Shown here: piece by piece, positions 3,045 to 8,916 of the stretch
How positions within the stretch are numbered: position 1 is the stretch's first letter
Layout of the letters: every line of letters starts with the position of its first letter
NCBI GenBank assembly: GCA_021160245.1
Contig: JAGHCW010000175.1
Span: forward strand, 1-8,916
Length of the DNA: 8,916 nt
Source: a bacterium
GTDB lineage: Bacteria; B130-G9
Direction of reading: 5' to 3'
The notes under the pieces: generated by a model
The model's input: the letters and a program-made list of their open reading frames with translations, nothing else
Databases searched by the model: none
What the model was told of the DNA's origin: nothing
Position numbers and translations under genes: made by a program

Positions 3045-3575
3045 TCAGCTCATATAGGCGCGTATCTCCTCGCGGATATATTTGGAAAACTTCCTCTTCT
3101 CTCGCAGCAATGGCCAGGCCCTCTGCAGAACCTTATATCTTGTCCGCTTGCCTCCCCGGTACTCAGCGACAACGATTGACTTAGTATCGAGCTGATAATC
3201 ATCTAAGAAATGCTCGTTTTCGGGCTTGTCTGTGCTGATGGGCCTCCATTTCAAAAGACCGGCCCTAATGGCTTCAGCAAACTCCCCCTCCATCGCCTCA
3301 AGCGTCATCGATTCGAATAAACGGCTAGCGTAGCTTCGCCATGTTGAGTGGAAGTAATAGACGACAACGACATCTCCGAGTTCCTGAGTGTCCGGGACCT
3401 GCTTCGCTATTTCTCCTTCGGCACTCATCGGCCGGCCGGTCTCTTGGAGCGACAGTTTCGTGCTGGATGACGAATGTGATGGCCTCTTAGGCGCGTTGGC
3501 TATCATGTAGGCCAAGCTGGCAATAATGAATGAAAGCAGAGCAAACGTCGCTATTCTATTGGACCAAATACCCAT
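3045..3575 (-). CDS. ArsF-like membrane-anchored thioredoxin-fold protein lacking the CxxC (SxxS instead)
   Basis: The protein has 176 residues: one N-terminal membrane anchor (about residues 7-26), a low-complexity serine/threonine-rich linker (30-65), and a thioredoxin-like domain (68-172). It is a clear paralogue of the ArsF-like protein at 4119-4682. Shared blocks are VYYFH, DKPENEHFLDDYQL, RGGK-TRYKVL and a basic-acidic C-terminal helix. The family's active site, C-x-x-C in the neighbour, reads R-S-Y-A-S here (S81 and S84), and the protein contains no cysteine at all. It therefore cannot perform dithiol chemistry alone and may have a binding or scaffolding role, or it may be a decaying duplicate. 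The frame is intact and otherwise well conserved, which argues for function. I chose the ATG at 3575 because GGAGGA lies four bases upstream; the in-frame TTG at 3611 has no such signal. It starts 39 bases after the small thioredoxin-like gene, so the two are probably co-transcribed. Confidence 0.72.
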   Translation of the reverse strand: MGIWSNRIATFALLSFIIASLAYMIANAPKRPSHSSSSTKLSLQETGRPMSAEGEIAKQVPDTQELGDVVVVYYFHSTWRSYASRLFESMTLEAMEGEFAEAIRAGLLKWRPISTDKPENEHFLDDYQLDTKSIVVAEYRGGKRTRYKVLQRAWPLLREKRKFSKYIREEIRAYMS

Positions 3576-3614
3576 AATTCCTCCAGCAGCTTCTCTCAGA
3601 ACAACCCGCAAAAG

Positions 3615-3848
3615 CTATAAGAGCAGCGTCTTTATCTCCTCAACATTGAGTATCTTGCCCTGGGACTTCACCTCACTGTTGATGGCAAGCGCCGGCGTCA
3701 TCGTCACTCCGAAATCACCGATCCTGTCGATGTCTGTAATCTTCTCCATAACGAACTGTATTTGAAGCTCCCTGGCGGCATCCTCCGCGTTCTCAAAGAG
3801 CTTCCTGCAGTTGGGGCAATCCGCGCCCAGTATCTGCAACCTCTTCAT
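3615..3848 (-). CDS. small thioredoxin-like redox-active disulfide protein (ArsE-like candidate)
   Basis: This 77-residue cytoplasmic protein has the minimal thioredoxin fold seen in the redox-active disulfide protein 2 group. The active-site motif ADCPNC places cysteines at residues 11 and 14, right after the first beta strand (KRLQILG). The cis-proline follows in VTMTPALAING-like context (T51-P52 here, with INSEV), and the C-terminus forms the usual short helix, NVEEIKTLLL. It has no signal peptide or membrane segment. The ATG at 3848 is preceded by AGGAG at seven bases, better than the adjacent TTG at 3851. It sits directly upstream of an ArsF-like gene. In the Shewanella arsEFG system a small partner acts with ArsF in nitroaromatic-arsenical reduction, so an ArsE-like role is a reasonable guess but not shown here. 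It could equally be a general dithiol carrier that feeds electrons to the membrane-bound thioredoxin-fold proteins. Confidence 0.85.
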   Translation of the reverse strand: MKRLQILGADCPNCRKLFENAEDAARELQIQFVMEKITDIDRIGDFGVTMTPALAINSEVKSQGKILNVEEIKTLLL

Positions 3849-3883
3849 CAAACATCTCCTATTTCAGTGTGTATCCTTTGAAC

Positions 3884-4118: not shown

Positions 4119-4682
4119 TCATCCTTTCGCAAGATAGGGCCGAACCTCGTTACGAACGTACACCAGGAAGCCATCTTTTTCGTCCAGCAGCGACCAGGTG
4201 TCTTCCAAGACCTTATATCGAGTGCTTTTGCCGCCTCTTATCTGTGCGACAACGAGGGACTTGTCTGTCAGTTGATAGTCGTCTATGAAGTGGTCGTTCT
4301 CAGGTTTCTCGACGTCAACGGCCCTCCATTCCAATCGCCCGGCCTTCAGCGCGTCCGGGAAACCATCCAAGACGGCCTCTTTCGCCCATTCCTCCAACCT
4401 TATGCAGCGGTCACAACGAGCGGTAATGTGGAAGTAATATACGATGACTCTAACTGGGTCTGATGTCGGCGAGGCATCTTGATTACTGGCTTGGTGCGCA
4501 ACTTGTGCAGAGGAAGTGCTCTGCGAAGCAAGAGTGGCGCCGGAAAGATCGAATGCAGCGATCGCAGAGTTCATTTCCCGCACGGGTCGAATCGGGGTCT
4601 TGACGGCCATATAGGCTACAACTGCAATGGCAAGAATTAGAAGTGTGAACTTGACCACAGTCACATGTTGGGAATTAAGCAT
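4119..4682 (-). CDS. arsF: ArsF-family membrane-anchored thioredoxin-like protein with CxxC (nitrophenyl-arsenical reductase subunit family)
   Basis: The protein has 187 residues: an N-terminal membrane anchor (about 9-27), a flexible Ser/Ala/Gln-rich linker to about 75, and a thioredoxin-like domain (77-185) that would face the outside or periplasm. The active site is YYFHITARCDRC, giving C90 and C93. The family's signature KPENDHFIDDYQL and RGGKSTRYKVL blocks follow. Related ArsF proteins take part, with ArsE, in reducing nitro-aromatic arsenicals in the arsEFG operon described from Shewanella. Whether that substrate applies here is unknown, and a general extracytoplasmic dithiol reductase is the alternative. 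I chose the ATG at 4682, which has GGAG a few bases upstream; an in-frame TTG at 4724 lies two bases after the acr3 stop but has no ribosome-binding site. The gene directly follows acr3 and belongs to the same transcript. Confidence 0.78.
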   Translation of the reverse strand: MLNSQHVTVVKFTLLILAIAVVAYMAVKTPIRPVREMNSAIAAFDLSGATLASQSTSSAQVAHQASNQDASPTSDPVRVIVYYFHITARCDRCIRLEEWAKEAVLDGFPDALKAGRLEWRAVDVEKPENDHFIDDYQLTDKSLVVAQIRGGKSTRYKVLEDTWSLLDEKDGFLVYVRNEVRPYLAKG

Positions 4683-4726
4683 GATTCTCCAGATTCTTGA
4701 GAACAGGGGTCGCTCGTCCCGCAACG

Positions 4727-5944
4727 CTACATCGCAGGCTCAAACCAGGGACGCGTGCGAAGACAAATCCTGACCAACATCAACATGACTGGGACTTCTA
4801 TAAGCACCCCAACGACTGTGGCAAGCGCCGCCCCTGAAGAGAGTCCGAACAGCATCGTGGCTGTCGCTATGGCGACCTCAAAATGATTCGAGGCCCCGAT
4901 CATCGCAGAGGGCGCTGCGTCCTCGTAAGAGAGCTTGAGAAGCCTTGACAGGCCATATCCAAGCCAGAATATAAGATTCGTTTGGATGAATAGCGGTATG
5001 GCGATCCATAAGATCGTCAGCGGATTCGACAGAATCACTTCGCCTTTGAACGAGAACAGCAACAGCAGTGTCACAAGAAGGGCGATGATAGTAACAGGCG
5101 TCAAAAGATGAAGGAACTTCTCTTCGAACCACGCCAGCCCCTTGGCGCCGATGATCCACCTTCTGGTGAAGTAGCCAGCCGACAGCGGAAGCGCTACATA
5201 GACCCCTATCGAGAGAAGAAGCGCCTGCCAGGGGACGGGAAGCCTGCCCACGCCCAGCAGGAAGCCGCCCAAGAGGCCATAGAGCAAGAGCATTGTGAGC
5301 GAGTTGATCGCAACCATCACCAGTGTGTGCCCATCGTTCCCCTTTGCCAGGAAGCCCCAAACCAGCACCATCGCTGTGCATGGCGCGATGCCCAGAAGTA
5401 TGCATCCGGCAAGATAACTTCGCCAAAGAGGGACCTGGAGCATCTTCACACCCTCGACGATCACAACACGACCGGCGCCATAGACGGCGTCCACCGGCAG
5501 ATCGAGGCCAAAAGGCATCTTGACGTAATCCACGGCGTCTTCACCGATTAAACCTCTGAAAAGCACGCCGAGAAACAAGATCGCGATTGCATACATCGTG
5601 AACGGCTTGATCGCCCAGTTGACGAAGAGTGTAAGCCCAACCGGCTTGACGTTCTTGCCCGCTTTGAGCACCTCGGCAAAGTCAATCTTCACCATGATAG
5701 GATACATCATAAAGAAGAGGCAGACGGCGATGGGGATGGACACGACAGGCGCGCCGCCCACGTAGATGGCCGTCCCATCCAACGCTTTGGCAAACTGCGG
5801 AGCGAGGCGACCCAGCAGGATGCCGCCAGCTATGCAGAGCAGCACCCACAAAGTTAAGTAGCGCTCAAAGGCGCTCAATGCCCCTATCTTCTTCGATTCG
5901 TTTCCCATTCCGTTCGCGGCGCTATCACGCAGTTCTCGCTTCAT
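4727..5944 (-). CDS. acr3: Acr3-family arsenite efflux permease
   Basis: This polytopic inner-membrane protein of 405 residues belongs to the Acr3 branch of the bile acid/arsenite/riboflavin transporter superfamily, which exports As(OH)3 using the proton gradient. About ten hydrophobic segments are visible from residue 29 to 395. The diagnostic motif [12 protein letters not shown] carries the conserved cysteine (C189) that is essential in studied Acr3 proteins. The late motif [18 protein letters not shown] carries the conserved glutamate (E356). Other family marks are [11 protein letters not shown] at 79-89 and NWAIKPF at 109-115. The protein is longer than the usual 350-370 residues, partly because about 35-40 residues (roughly 134-172) are inserted before the [14 protein letters not shown] helix, in an external or internal loop. 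The ATG at 5944 is preceded by GAGAGG at seven bases. The stop of the ArsG-like gene lies 11 bases upstream and the ArsF gene follows closely, so these form one operon. Confidence 0.94.
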
Positions 5945-5955
5945 CTAAATGCCTC

Positions 5956-6675
5956 TCAGAATGTCCAAAGGAAGTAGAATCCAACTGCAACCAGAAGCAC
6001 ACCGGCGACCCAGCGAATCACCGACTCCACCCCGCGAATCTTTGTCGCCACGGCCCCCAGTGAAGAAACGCCCAGCGTGAGCGCGGTCAGCGGGACGGCG
6101 AATCCCAGCGCGTAGGCGAGAAGGATGGCCGCCATGAAGAGCGTGGCGCCCTGGAGCACGGCTGCTCCGAGTATAATGTAAATCCCAGGATTGCAGGCGA
6201 GCGAGCAGACGCTCACTCCGCCTCCGGCAACCAGGCCGAAGAGAATCGAACCTAATATACCCTTATCCCGGACAAGTCCCTTAGGTCGCTCGCCATGGGG
6301 CATCCGGAATGGAAGTAACTTCATTGTTGCTAAGCCCATTAAAATGGCCACGATGCCTGCAAAGAGCTTCCAAAATCTCCCGAGAATGCTCTGAGTAGCC
6401 TGTCCGATGCAGGCAGCGACCCCGCCTAGAATCACAAGCGCGAGAGCTGTGCCCAAGAAGAAGCCTGCGGCCAATAGCCACCTTTCGCGCCATTCACGGC
6501 TCACTTTAGCTCCTGCATAGCCCACGATGACCCCAAGCACCGGAAGGGTGCAGCACAGGCTGACGACAGCGCTCAACAGGCCGAGCAGGAACGCCAAGGG
6601 AATGCTAAGAAGCCCGAAACCTGATTGGTCAAATGCCGCGCCCGCCCAGTCGGTGAGCGCCCGTATCTTGTCCAT
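5956..6675 (-). CDS. arsG: CcdA/DsbD-type six-helix membrane protein, ArsG-like
   Basis: The protein has 239 residues with about six membrane helices (near 22-52, 66-90, 99-121, 138-170, 173-199 and 216-238), the size and layout of the CcdA / DsbD transmembrane-domain family. Conserved-position cysteines are in helix 1, SLCCTLPVLG (C41, C42), and helix 4, VCSLACNPGIYII (C157, C161); a further C89 is in helix 2. In CcdA-type proteins, one cysteine from each of helices 1 and 4 forms the disulfide that carries electrons from cytoplasmic thioredoxin to extracytoplasmic thiol proteins. Members of this family next to arsF are called ArsG and described as permeases for trivalent aminoaryl arsenicals. 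Here both roles are plausible: flanking genes encode membrane-tethered thioredoxin-fold proteins that would be natural electron acceptors. The ATG at 6675 has AAGGA five bases upstream; the preceding gene ends 12 bases before it and acr3 begins 11 bases after, a tight operon. Confidence is high for the family and moderate for the ArsG label. Confidence 0.8.
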   Translation of the reverse strand: MDKIRALTDWAGAAFDQSGFGLLSIPLAFLLGLLSAVVSLCCTLPVLGVIVGYAGAKVSREWRERWLLAAGFFLGTALALVILGGVAACIGQATQSILGRFWKLFAGIVAILMGLATMKLLPFRMPHGERPKGLVRDKGILGSILFGLVAGGGVSVCSLACNPGIYIILGAAVLQGATLFMAAILLAYALGFAVPLTALTLGVSSLGAVATKIRGVESVIRWVAGVLLVAVGFYFLWTF

Positions 6676-6687
6676 TGCAGTCCTTTT

Positions 6688-7332
6688 CTACTTGCAGCCA
6701 GACTTAGAAGCGCCGCCCGAGCAACACCCGCCGGACACAGGTCGAGACGACGCCACAACGGCCTTCAACAGCGCGTCCTTGCTGATCCTGTGGCCTGAGA
6801 TGACGTTTGAGCCTCGTCCCTTATACATGGTAATGATCGTCGGAGTCCCGTTCTGTCTCACCATCCGGGCATAATCTCGCGAGGCCTCGCTCAGCAGAAA
6901 CGTTCTTACCCGTATTCCGCGCGATGAAACCGCCGATGTCGCCTCATTCAGCGCTTGCTCGATCCTCGCCATCTCGGCGTCATCTTCCGCCGGCAGAACG
7001 ACGAAAACGGCTTCAGTGGTGGCAGCGGCCGTGTTCAGCTCCGCCAACGAATTCAGGGCGCCCCATTCGTTCGACGTTTGCGAGGCCTGCCCCGGCCTGG
7101 GCTGACTGACCTGATTAAGCGTGGAGGAGTAGTTAGCCTGACCCTTTTGGGCTTCTGTCACCCCAGTTATGGAGAGACGGGCCGCCACGACGCCGACCGC
7201 GACGAGAAGTACAATGCCGCAGATGAAAAACTTGACCCGCCGTCCACTTCCTGAAGCGGGGCTCTGACAGCTGCATTCTGGCCCACAGCATTCCTCGGCT
7301 CCCTCTAATTCATCCTTCTCTTCTTCGCTCAT
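6688..7332 (-). CDS. membrane-anchored thioredoxin-fold protein with cysteine-rich ends and no CxxC
   Basis: The 214-residue protein starts with an acidic segment carrying a cysteine cluster, CCGPECSC (C15, C16, C20, C22). A membrane helix follows (about 33-51), then a Gln/Ser-rich linker (60-100) and a thioredoxin-like domain (107-195) with an AVFVVLPAEDDAEM first strand and turn, and NGTPTII carrying the likely cis-proline (T163-P164). It ends in GGCCSGGASKSGC (C203, C204, C213). At the position where thioredoxins have CxxC, this protein has A-E-D-D. It may therefore bind rather than reduce, with the cysteine clusters chelating As(III) or Hg(II), or the tail cysteines may substitute for the missing active site. 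Topology, by positive charges RR at 31-32, suggests the N-terminal cysteines are cytoplasmic and the domain with its tail outside. The ATG at 7332 has AAAGGA about ten bases upstream. It follows hgcB by 121 bp and precedes the ArsG-like gene by 12 bases. I do not recognise a named family; the fold assignment is by pattern. Confidence 0.75.
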   Translation of the reverse strand: MSEEEKDELEGAEECCGPECSCQSPASGSGRRVKFFICGIVLLVAVGVVAARLSITGVTEAQKGQANYSSTLNQVSQPRPGQASQTSNEWGALNSLAELNTAAATTEAVFVVLPAEDDAEMARIEQALNEATSAVSSRGIRVRTFLLSEASRDYARMVRQNGTPTIITMYKGRGSNVISGHRISKDALLKAVVASSRPVSGGCCSGGASKSGCK

Positions 7333-7408
7333 CGCTCAAACATCCTTTCATCTTCATTCGAAGTGTTCACAATCACACACAATTACAGCGCTCTATAGCT
7401 CATGGTTT

Positions 7409-7429
7409 GCCGGCCTTTATGTCGGCGGC
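7409..7429 (-). other. weak hairpin between hgcB and the thioredoxin-fold gene
   Basis: In the 121-bp gap after hgcB, GCCGCC and GGCCGGC arms pair over six base pairs with one bulged base around an eight-base loop. No U-run follows, so it is not a standard rho-independent terminator. It could stabilise or process the hgcAB transcript, or it could be chance. Confidence 0.15.
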
Positions 7430-7453
7430 GCGGACATATCAATCTGACGAGTC

Positions 7454-7786
7454 TCAATCGCTCTTCTTGTCGCCGCAACAGCAACCACATGAGGGCTCTC
7501 TATGCAGCAAGGCGGCGATGATTATCGCGGATGCGCAGCCAACACCGGCATCAACGAAGATAGCCTCAACAGGACAGTTCAACGCACAGGCTCCACACTC
7601 CATACAGGCGTCGTGATCGATTACAGTGGCTTTGCCGCTGTCCACCGCGAAGACCTCGTGCGGGCAAACCTGTGTGCAAGTCCCGCACCCAATGCACTTT
7701 TGGGTGTCTAAAGACAGTGACACATCTTTCGACAGATAACGAGGTTTACTCATACTACCCTCAGTGCAACATACCTGCGCCTTCAT
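7454..7786 (-). CDS. hgcB: HgcB, mercury-methylation 2x[4Fe-4S] ferredoxin
   Basis: This 110-residue ferredoxin is the electron donor of the mercury-methylation pair; it is thought to reduce the corrinoid cobalt of HgcA and to handle Hg(II). Two [4Fe-4S] motifs are visible: CIGCGTCTQVCP (residues 31-42) and CMECGACALNCP (61-72), the second with the MECGACALNCPV wording typical of HgcB. A further conserved cysteine follows in DAGVGCAS (about residue 84), equivalent to the single conserved cysteine after the second cluster in characterised HgcB. The C-terminus ends in SCGCCCGDKKSD, matching the required vicinal cysteine pair with extra cysteines. The frame starts with ATG at 7786, overlapping the hgcA stop in ATGA with AAGGG upstream; this 4-base overlap suggests translational coupling. 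A second ATG at 7753 with GAGGG five bases upstream is a credible alternative and would remove an N-terminal segment that contains another CC pair. HgcB specificity over a generic ferredoxin is secured by the adjacent hgcA. Confidence 0.95.
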   Translation of the reverse strand: MKAQVCCTEGSMSKPRYLSKDVSLSLDTQKCIGCGTCTQVCPHEVFAVDSGKATVIDHDACMECGACALNCPVEAIFVDAGVGCASAIIIAALLHREPSCGCCCGDKKSD

Positions 7787-8901
7787 ACAACGCCCTTCAC
7801 AATCAACAGGGCAACGCCCAGGAAGGCCGCCGCAAGCTGCACAGGCGCTGCTATTCTCACCTCGCGCCTCACCCCGGAGAATGATGTATAGGTTGAGGCG
7901 CCAGTGAAGAGCATGGCGGCGAAACTGATAGCAGCAGGGATAAGAAATAGCAATGCGAGGCCCGTTAGCCAGCTGTCAAATAGTCCGGGGCTGACCAGTT
8001 CATATCCGACCAGGAGCAGCACTACGGCTAGACCAACCCACGCCCCTTTAAGCGCGAATGCCCGTCCCGGGAGCCACGGCAGCAGAATCGGAGTTATGGA
8101 CAAAGCTGCCCAGAACGCGCCGTACTTCAGCACGGTAGAGCCGATGCCAATGGAAAGGGCTCGTTCGATCGAGAATAACCCGGGCCCAAACCCGGCTATC
8201 AAGAGGCGGATGACCGCGATCAAGATGACGAATTTGGCAAATATCATGAGCTCAGTCGGGACTAGAACCAGGCGATCTCGAAGAGCGAATCTCACGCGCC
8301 GCATCTCCGGCGTCGCGGTGATCCCCGCCTCAAGAAACGCTGGTATGTCGTGGGCTCGCACGGGCCCGAAGACTACTGAAAAGCCTGTGCGGCGCTTCAC
8401 TTCGTGTCCGCAGACGCCGGCCGCGCCGAGCTGAGGCACGATGAGCTTGCGCTGCGACACGATCTCAGGCAGCCGCGTCTGTTCGAGGCGATTGACGAGC
8501 TCGTCCGTTCCAAAAGTGCCCTTACCGGCAGCACACCAGACGTTTATGCCCTTTGTGTCAAGAACCATTATCCAGGCGTCAAGACCGCTCAGTTCAGAAC
8601 GCAGCCGGTCGAAGCTCATCTTGTAGTTTGCCGAGACGAAGACTAGCGAATCCGGTCCAGAATTCCCTACCGCATATAGCCCCGGCTTCACCCTATAACG
8701 CATCCGGCCAATGGCGCACCTCTTCATGAAGCCGCCGAGATGATCTCTAAATTGCAGCCGTGTTGACACTTGCGGCACGTCGCCAACGACAGTTTTGATG
8801 AAGTCCTTCACCCAAGGCGGCTTCTCCTCATAGAACACACTTGGCGACGGGCAGCAACAGCCAGCGCCGGATGATGGCTCACGCTGATCGGGCCCGGTCA
8901 C
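7783..8901 (-). CDS. hgcA: HgcA, mercury-methylation corrinoid protein
   Basis: HgcA transfers a methyl group from a corrinoid cofactor to Hg(II), giving methylmercury; its corrinoid domain resembles CdhD/CFeSP of the acetyl-CoA pathway. The diagnostic cap-helix motif NVWCAAGK is at residues 120-127, with C123 as the cysteine that coordinates cobalt. Around it are other HgcA-typical stretches: VKPGLYAVG (71-79), SANYKMSFD (90-98), QRKLIVPQLGAAGV (150-163) and VVFGPVRAHDIPAFL (176-190). The C-terminal half has five hydrophobic helices near 215-236, 255-276, 284-304, 310-334 and 351-369, as expected. The length of 372 residues is normal. The start is taken as GTG at 8901 with GGAGA about eight bases upstream, but the frame stays open for the last five codons to the window edge, so a slightly earlier start cannot be excluded. 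An unusual N-terminal GCCCP triplet of cysteines (15-17) precedes the corrinoid domain. It is first in the visible operon and overlaps hgcB by four bases; its promoter lies outside the window. Confidence 0.97.
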   Translation of the reverse strand: MTGPDQREPSSGAGCCCPSPSVFYEEKPPWVKDFIKTVVGDVPQVSTRLQFRDHLGGFMKRCAIGRMRYRVKPGLYAVGNSGPDSLVFVSANYKMSFDRLRSELSGLDAWIMVLDTKGINVWCAAGKGTFGTDELVNRLEQTRLPEIVSQRKLIVPQLGAAGVCGHEVKRRTGFSVVFGPVRAHDIPAFLEAGITATPEMRRVRFALRDRLVLVPTELMIFAKFVILIAVIRLLIAGFGPGLFSIERALSIGIGSTVLKYGAFWAALSITPILLPWLPGRAFALKGAWVGLAVVLLLVGYELVSPGLFDSWLTGLALLFLIPAAISFAAMLFTGASTYTSFSGVRREVRIAAPVQLAAAFLGVALLIVKGVV

Positions 8902-8916
8902 TCCGTTGCTCTCCGC

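Follow-up and report, generated by a model that had tools for sequence, protein, structure and literature searches.

The closest described counterparts of the locus analyzed here are the HgcAB mercury-methylation proteins of the Pseudodesulfovibrio mercurii ND132 type and the arsenic operons near which such genes have been found. Mutagenesis in ND132 showed the importance of Cys93 in HgcA and, in HgcB, of Cys73 and of one cysteine of the pair Cys94/95 (PMC7305189). Genes for hgcAB have been described flanked by acr3, arsC, arsM, and arsR (McDaniel et al. 2020, PMC7438021), and control of hgcAB by ArsR in ND132 is cited in PMC10349881. The field still asks what makes bacteria retain hgcAB and by what route methylmercury is released from the cell. 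The window, the whole stretch of 8,916 nucleotides that was analyzed, is the entire contig C238 of a 3.43-Mb MAG (94.8% complete, 1.8% contamination). It encodes both hgcA and hgcB on its minus strand, at positions 7454 to 8901. We consider it highly probable that these genes specify a genuine HgcA-HgcB pair and that, within an ArsR-type arsenic/soft-metal operon, this pair is the methyltransferase module, located where a sister lineage has arsM. Like the ND132-type proteins, the pair matches the equivalog profiles, has the cap-helix cysteine, the [4Fe-4S] motifs, the later cysteine, and the Cys-rich tail, and shows the gene adjacency and the membrane domain. Unlike them, it comes from a rarely sampled phylum (4 genomes), its activity is a prediction, and its HgcA has an N-terminal CCC motif, CC motifs being present in several relatives too. 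The window likewise resembles the published loci (PMC7438021, PMC10349881) in having hgcAB beside arsenic genes; it differs from those loci, as far as these papers describe them, in having an arsM scar in the slot, a known arsM-bearing sister locus, and a cassette for a Cys-rich thioredoxin-fold protein and a CcdA-like protein.

In a profile search, the product of hgcA (7783 to 8901, minus strand) scored 422.7 bits against the HgcA equivalog NF040863, which has a cutoff of 275, and only 191.7 bits against the fused HgcAB-like model, which has a cutoff of 285. The cap helix, GINVWCAAGKGTFGT, contains the predicted motif NVWCAAGK at N120 to K127, including the cobalt-ligand cysteine, and every column from N120 to F130, together with T132, was at least 95% conserved in an alignment of HgcA relatives. 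At six alignment columns with a conservation of at least 90%, the window protein differs from its relatives, and none of these columns lies in the cap helix. Five C-terminal membrane helices had been predicted; simple hydropathy gave four clear membrane segments and a weaker fifth. Sequence search returned no solved HgcA structure, just large (gamma) subunits of CFeSP. The GTG at 8901, which has a GGAG upstream, is a plausible start for hgcA. It overlaps with a TGA of a different reading frame, which could mark the end of a gene farther upstream. Since just 15 bp of the contig precede hgcA, the upstream DNA, with the promoter and the regulator, lies off the contig, and the hgcA reading frame stays open up to position 8916. 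The original prediction of a complete pair was nearly right in that both genes are present, although the DNA upstream of them is missing.

The adjacent hgcB gene (7454 to 7753, minus strand) scored 116.7 bits against the HgcB equivalog NF040864 (cutoff, 99). As had been predicted, its product has two CxxCxxCxxxCP motifs, CIGCGTCTQVCP and CMECGACALNCP, a later conserved cysteine in the form GVGC, and a Cys-rich tail, CGCCC. Among the HgcB proteins of relatives, the clusters were present in 82 of 82, the later GxGC-type cysteine in 80, and a paired-Cys tail in 76. Since the cap-helix and HgcB cysteines are kept, the residues defined by mutagenesis in ND132 all have counterparts here (the cap-helix Cys, Cys73 of HgcB, and at least one tail Cys), which agrees with the earlier statement that the required residues are intact. 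The overlap that had been claimed between the two genes depends on the start codon of hgcB. The first ATG, at 7786, gives an ATGA overlap with hgcA, whereas the ATG at 7753 leaves a short gap. The latter is the likely start, as it has a better Shine-Dalgarno sequence (GAGGG) and agrees with the HgcB starts of relatives.

HgcA-like corrinoid paralogues occur in the sampled genomes (L007, L008, L009, and L011), and the window protein could be such a paralogue with no part in mercury methylation. We regard this as very improbable, given an HgcA score far above the cutoff, a fused-paralogue score below it, and linkage to a stand-alone HgcB with all of its motifs. The tree argues the same way. In a phylogeny of 90 rows, into which no experimentally confirmed methylator was deliberately put, the HgcA-like and fused paralogues formed a clade of their own (SH-aLRT, 99), with the window protein outside it and inside HgcA proper. 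It stood among HgcA proteins of Planctomycetota, Latescibacterota, Zixibacteria, Poribacteria, and others, in a 20-row group with an SH-aLRT of 96, and the closest HgcA proteins among the matches listed were about 57 to 60% identical and came from Planctomycetota. Profile searches of both proteins and an HgcA phylogeny had been proposed as checks on the original prediction, and both support it; a position among the HgcA-like corrinoid proteins, which had been named as evidence against it, was not observed.

The original prediction was incomplete rather than wrong, as it overlooked the arsenic island in which hgcAB takes the place of arsM. The gene order 3' of hgcB is CysTrx, a CcdA/ArsG-like permease, ACR3, ArsF, ArsE, ArsF, a CDF transporter, and BadFG, all on the minus strand. 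CysTrx (6688 to 7332) has a Cys-rich N-terminal tail, one transmembrane segment, a thioredoxin fold without CxxC, and a Cys-rich C-terminal tail. It matched no Pfam or NCBIfam family, and its AlphaFold model, with a pLDDT of about 92 over residues 91 to 190, matched thioredoxins in Foldseek. The next gene (5956 to 6675) encodes a polytopic membrane protein of the CcdA/DsbD type that is ArsG-like and has the paired Cys motifs CCTLP and CSLACNP. Its score of 39.3 bits against NF040495 (ArsG) is far below the cutoff of 200, and the protein is therefore not ArsG. Its size, its paired Cys motifs, a weak match to Pfam DsbD_2, and a best Foldseek match to CcdA (5vkv; probability of 0.99) liken it to the CcdA/DsbD electron carriers. 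It is unlike them in that the DsbD_2 score of 23.8 bits lies just below the gathering score of 24.9, the Foldseek match has an E value of 0.035 on a low-confidence model (pLDDT, 66), and the thioredoxin fold of its partner is without CxxC.

The remaining genes of the island were assigned above their cutoffs: acr3, for an arsenite efflux permease (4727 to 5944; TIGR00832, 371.3 bits against 282.8), an arsF-family gene (4119 to 4724; NF040494, 91.2 bits against 60), a gene for a small thioredoxin of the ArsE/MTH895 family (3615 to 3851; TIGR00412, 81.2 bits against 62), and a second arsF-family gene (3045 to 3611; NF040494, 71.5 bits against 60). A CDF cation efflux transporter (1903 to 2901; TIGR01297, 223.5 bits) marks the far edge of the island, and a BadF/BcrA-type CoA-dehydratase activase (BadFG; 1 to 1485) is cut by the contig start. 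Where the first ArsF has its CxxC (ITARCDRC), the second reads STWRSYASR, without that motif, and the copy of the second in the sister genus described below retains one Cys. The ArsE and ArsF matches, and a permease that is a distant relative of ArsG, recall the arsEFG operon for nitro-aromatic arsenicals; unlike in that operon, the permease fails the ArsG cutoff and has a Cys-rich thioredoxin-fold protein as its partner. The island also shares ArsR, ACR3, ArsE, and ArsF members with arsM/ACR3 arsenic operons, and the same island carries arsM in the sister genus, but the methyltransferase in the window is the corrinoid HgcAB pair and not the SAM-dependent ArsM. The window ACR3 is 77 to 78% identical to the ACR3 proteins of hgcAB loci in Lentisphaerae/PVC bacteria (L098 and L037), where the HgcA proteins are about 50% identical, and this difference hints at a separate transfer of acr3.

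The sister-genus genome, G001 (95% complete), has the island in identical order beside BadFG (CDF-ArsF-ArsE-ArsF-ACR3-ArsG-like-CysTrx), followed by arsM and arsR in the position of hgcAB. Closest to the methyltransferase slot are four genes for proteins that are 91% (ACR3), 82% (ArsF), 80% (ArsG-like), and 80% (CysTrx) identical between the two genomes, and the CDF transporter is 53% identical to the product of the gene at the matching place. The G001 arsM product is an arsenite methyltransferase by NF008823 (361.6 bits; cutoff, 263), and no hgcA was found in that genome. Conversely, the host assembly yielded no arsM, its best match showing 28% identity with an E value of 2e-8. Host contig C223 carries the part upstream of this slot, with genes for Trx and CcdA2, ends within an ArsR orthologue, and is syntenic with G001. 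Because no exact assembly overlap between C223 and the window was found, it is from synteny that we infer that C223 directly precedes the window contig. An arsM copy could in principle have been missed in the gap between these two contigs or in the 5% of the genome that the assembly lacks.

The window retains a trace of arsM. The gap between hgcB and CysTrx, 121 bp long, aligns to the last part of the G001 arsM and the DNA behind it. The relic of the arsM 3' end (7361 to 7449, minus strand) includes the arsM stop codon at 7375 to 7373 and 12 bp of downstream homology, and no more than about 16 bp separate the hgcB stop from the onset of the homology. The global score of the relic against the G001 arsM 3' end was 111, compared with 11.2 ± 4.3 (SD) and a maximum of 31 for shuffled sequences, and its local alignment score was 104, compared with 40 for the best alignment elsewhere in the 1.5 Mb of other loci. 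Its reading frame, YVRAADIKAGKP-stop-AIERCNCV-stop, set against YVRSADIKARKPKCAPGCCNCV-stop in ArsM, identifies it as the decayed end of a coding sequence, interrupted by a stop. Since the relic lies between hgcB and CysTrx, arsM formerly stood directly before CysTrx and has since been lost, and hgcAB holds its place. The leftover arsM end behind the pair suggests a takeover of the place of arsM by the mercury genes. It fits a one-step replacement and a loss from an ancestor with both equally well, and it gives no arrival time for hgcAB. At three other loci (L029, L069, and L026), inspection by eye of the translated gaps behind hgcB showed no ArsM-like relic.

In a different order of events, an ancestor would have carried arsR-hgcA-hgcB-arsM-CysTrx. 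A deletion in the host lineage would then have spared no more than the 3' end of arsM, and hgcAB would have disappeared from the lineage of G001. We hold this reciprocal loss to be a serious possibility, at somewhat less than even chances; it competes with a takeover on the order of events alone and leaves the present identity of the locus as described. Operons with both hgcAB and arsM do exist, in one gene run with the CysTrx/ArsG-like cassette, in Verrucomicrobiota (L207, G648:C43) and Myxococcota (L044), the order arsR-hgcAB-CysTrx recurs in L029, L069, and L200, and the relic is where such an arsM would have been. Set against these points, the island was not seen beside BadFG in the stretches visible of the other two family members, 10 kb upstream in G002 and 3.6 kb in G003. 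The loss of hgcAB from G001 would also need to have been precise, because arsR and arsM there overlap by ATGA with no trace of hgcAB between them. The genomes of G002 and G003 gave no strong match to the ArsG-like subfamily.

The host phylum consists of 4 genomes in one single family, and hgcA was found in the host alone among the 4. In an RpoB tree, the host forms a long separate branch near Nitrospinota, Acidobacteriota, and Myxococcota. A mis-binned contig was considered and ruled out. The BadFG of the contig shares 74 to 75% identity with its counterpart in each of the three family relatives, in the other genomes sampled the identity over its length does not exceed 59%, and this anchor indicates that the contig is truly part of the host lineage. 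The host RpoB takes up 1716 bp for a 373-position domain, which is longer than its counterparts in the comparison, and it therefore probably contains a large insertion.

At least 581 HgcA relatives were confirmed in a scan of GTDB r220, and the gene is therefore widespread though patchy. Carriers had been described beforehand as a small, scattered set, of which the scatter stands and the small number is outdated. Even samples gave hgcA in 6 of 392 Planctomycetota genomes, one of which is the center genome, and in 19 of the 387 genomes drawn from the phylum to which L037 (Lentisphaerae) belongs, which we take to be Verrucomicrobiota in GTDB usage. Across 81 hgcA loci, the commonest neighbors were ArsR (23), ACR3 (16), CcdA/ArsG-like proteins (13, encoded on the same strand), MarR-like proteins (11), and ArsC (10). 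Ten ArsG-like genes were present in hgcAB loci; a gene for a Cys-rich membrane protein lies directly upstream of nine, and the neighbor of the tenth is cut by a contig end, with a Cys-containing tail visible.

The ArsG-like subfamily was found in 22 of 387 Verrucomicrobiota genomes. The 20 cassette loci besides the center were read as stretches of about 6 to 12 kb, two of them hard to read; CysTrx was present in 18, ACR3 in most, arsM in 9, and hgcA in 4, with both arsM and hgcA in one. With the center left out, hgcA was found in 8 of 21 cassette-positive genomes and in 10 of 365 cassette-negative genomes of this phylum (Fisher P of 6e-7, an optimistic value because the genomes of one phylum are related and are not independent samples). 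In Verrucomicrobiota, the CysTrx/ArsG-like/ACR3 cassette is found with arsM, with hgcAB, with the two together, or with none of them, and its association with hgcA is strong. The cassette had seemed specific to hgcAB in Planctomycetota, where it was present in 1 of 392 genomes, the hgcA-positive center, a reading abandoned in view of Verrucomicrobiota, in which arsM or neither of the two genes accompanies many of the cassettes.

These distributions bear on the suggestion that hgcAB simply landed in a mobile, metal-inducible arsenic island, with no functional link to it and with the loss of arsM being incidental. The position of hgcAB relative to the cassette varies by lineage (before CysTrx, after the ArsG-like gene, or after ACR3), HgcA moves horizontally (PMC7438021), and at many hgcAB loci a search for a set of ars genes was negative. 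We nevertheless find such hitch-hiking rather doubtful. In many phyla, the genes most often found beside hgcA are those for ArsR, ACR3, and CcdA/ArsG-like proteins, nearly always in the same orientation. In one phylum, the cassette and hgcA occur together far more often than expected, and the published ArsR control of hgcAB, as cited in PMC10349881, points to shared regulation.

The reading that we prefer, an HgcAB module within an arsenic operon, leads to a prediction from gene content. The hgcAB genes most likely encode a working pair, subject to ArsR-type control, in one gene run with genes for thiol handling and efflux. The ArsR encoded at the end of the syntenic contig C223 would repress the operon, and As(III) or another thiophilic metal would release it. 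HgcA would take a methyl group from methyl-tetrahydrofolate, perhaps by way of a stand-alone methyl-THF:corrinoid methyltransferase-like protein that the host genome encodes (244 bits, just under the cutoff of 259) and that is a possible candidate for the methyl source; as no AcsC or AcsD was found in the host genome, this methyl route is a guess. HgcB would reduce the cobalt of the HgcA corrinoid, and Hg(II) would be bound by the tail cysteines of HgcB and then methylated at the corrinoid. CysTrx and the CcdA-like permease may supply reduced thiols or carry thiol-bound metal across the membrane, and ACR3 would export As(III). A further step would be to regard HgcAB and ArsM as interchangeable in one thiophilic-element operon, with HgcAB methylating arsenic or another soft element too or feeding a methylated product into export by CysTrx, the CcdA-like permease, and ACR3. 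We think this unlikely; if true, it would supply a native context for HgcAB and would turn the cassette downstream into a candidate for the export of methylmercury.

The nearness of hgcAB to ars genes was known already, and the arsM scar and the two-gene cassette are apparently unreported. The literature searched, in which few subscription papers were covered and which is weak evidence on this point, described neither an arsM scar, nor hgcAB in an arsM slot, nor the Cys-rich/CcdA-like cassette. Together, the scar, the arsM-bearing sister locus, and the defined cassette make the arsenic link testable, through the response to As(III), the action of HgcAB on arsenic, and the movement of methylmercury by the cassette.

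Several features of other hgcA loci were observed in the same comparison. Genes of a MarR-like family lie near and upstream of hgcA on the same strand at about 10 loci, with Acetivibrio mesophilus among the hosts. Several members have a CC motif (e.g., CCGxTxAQCH), and the MarR-like protein is possibly a second regulator of hgcAB besides ArsR. The Cys-rich membrane protein beside hgcAB at locus L051 (1004 to 1666) has a long His/Asp-rich repeat (HAGHGDHADHDGH...) and no clear thioredoxin-like part. Two genomes of the Verrucomicrobiota sample, G831 and G666, have two separate hgcA genes apiece.
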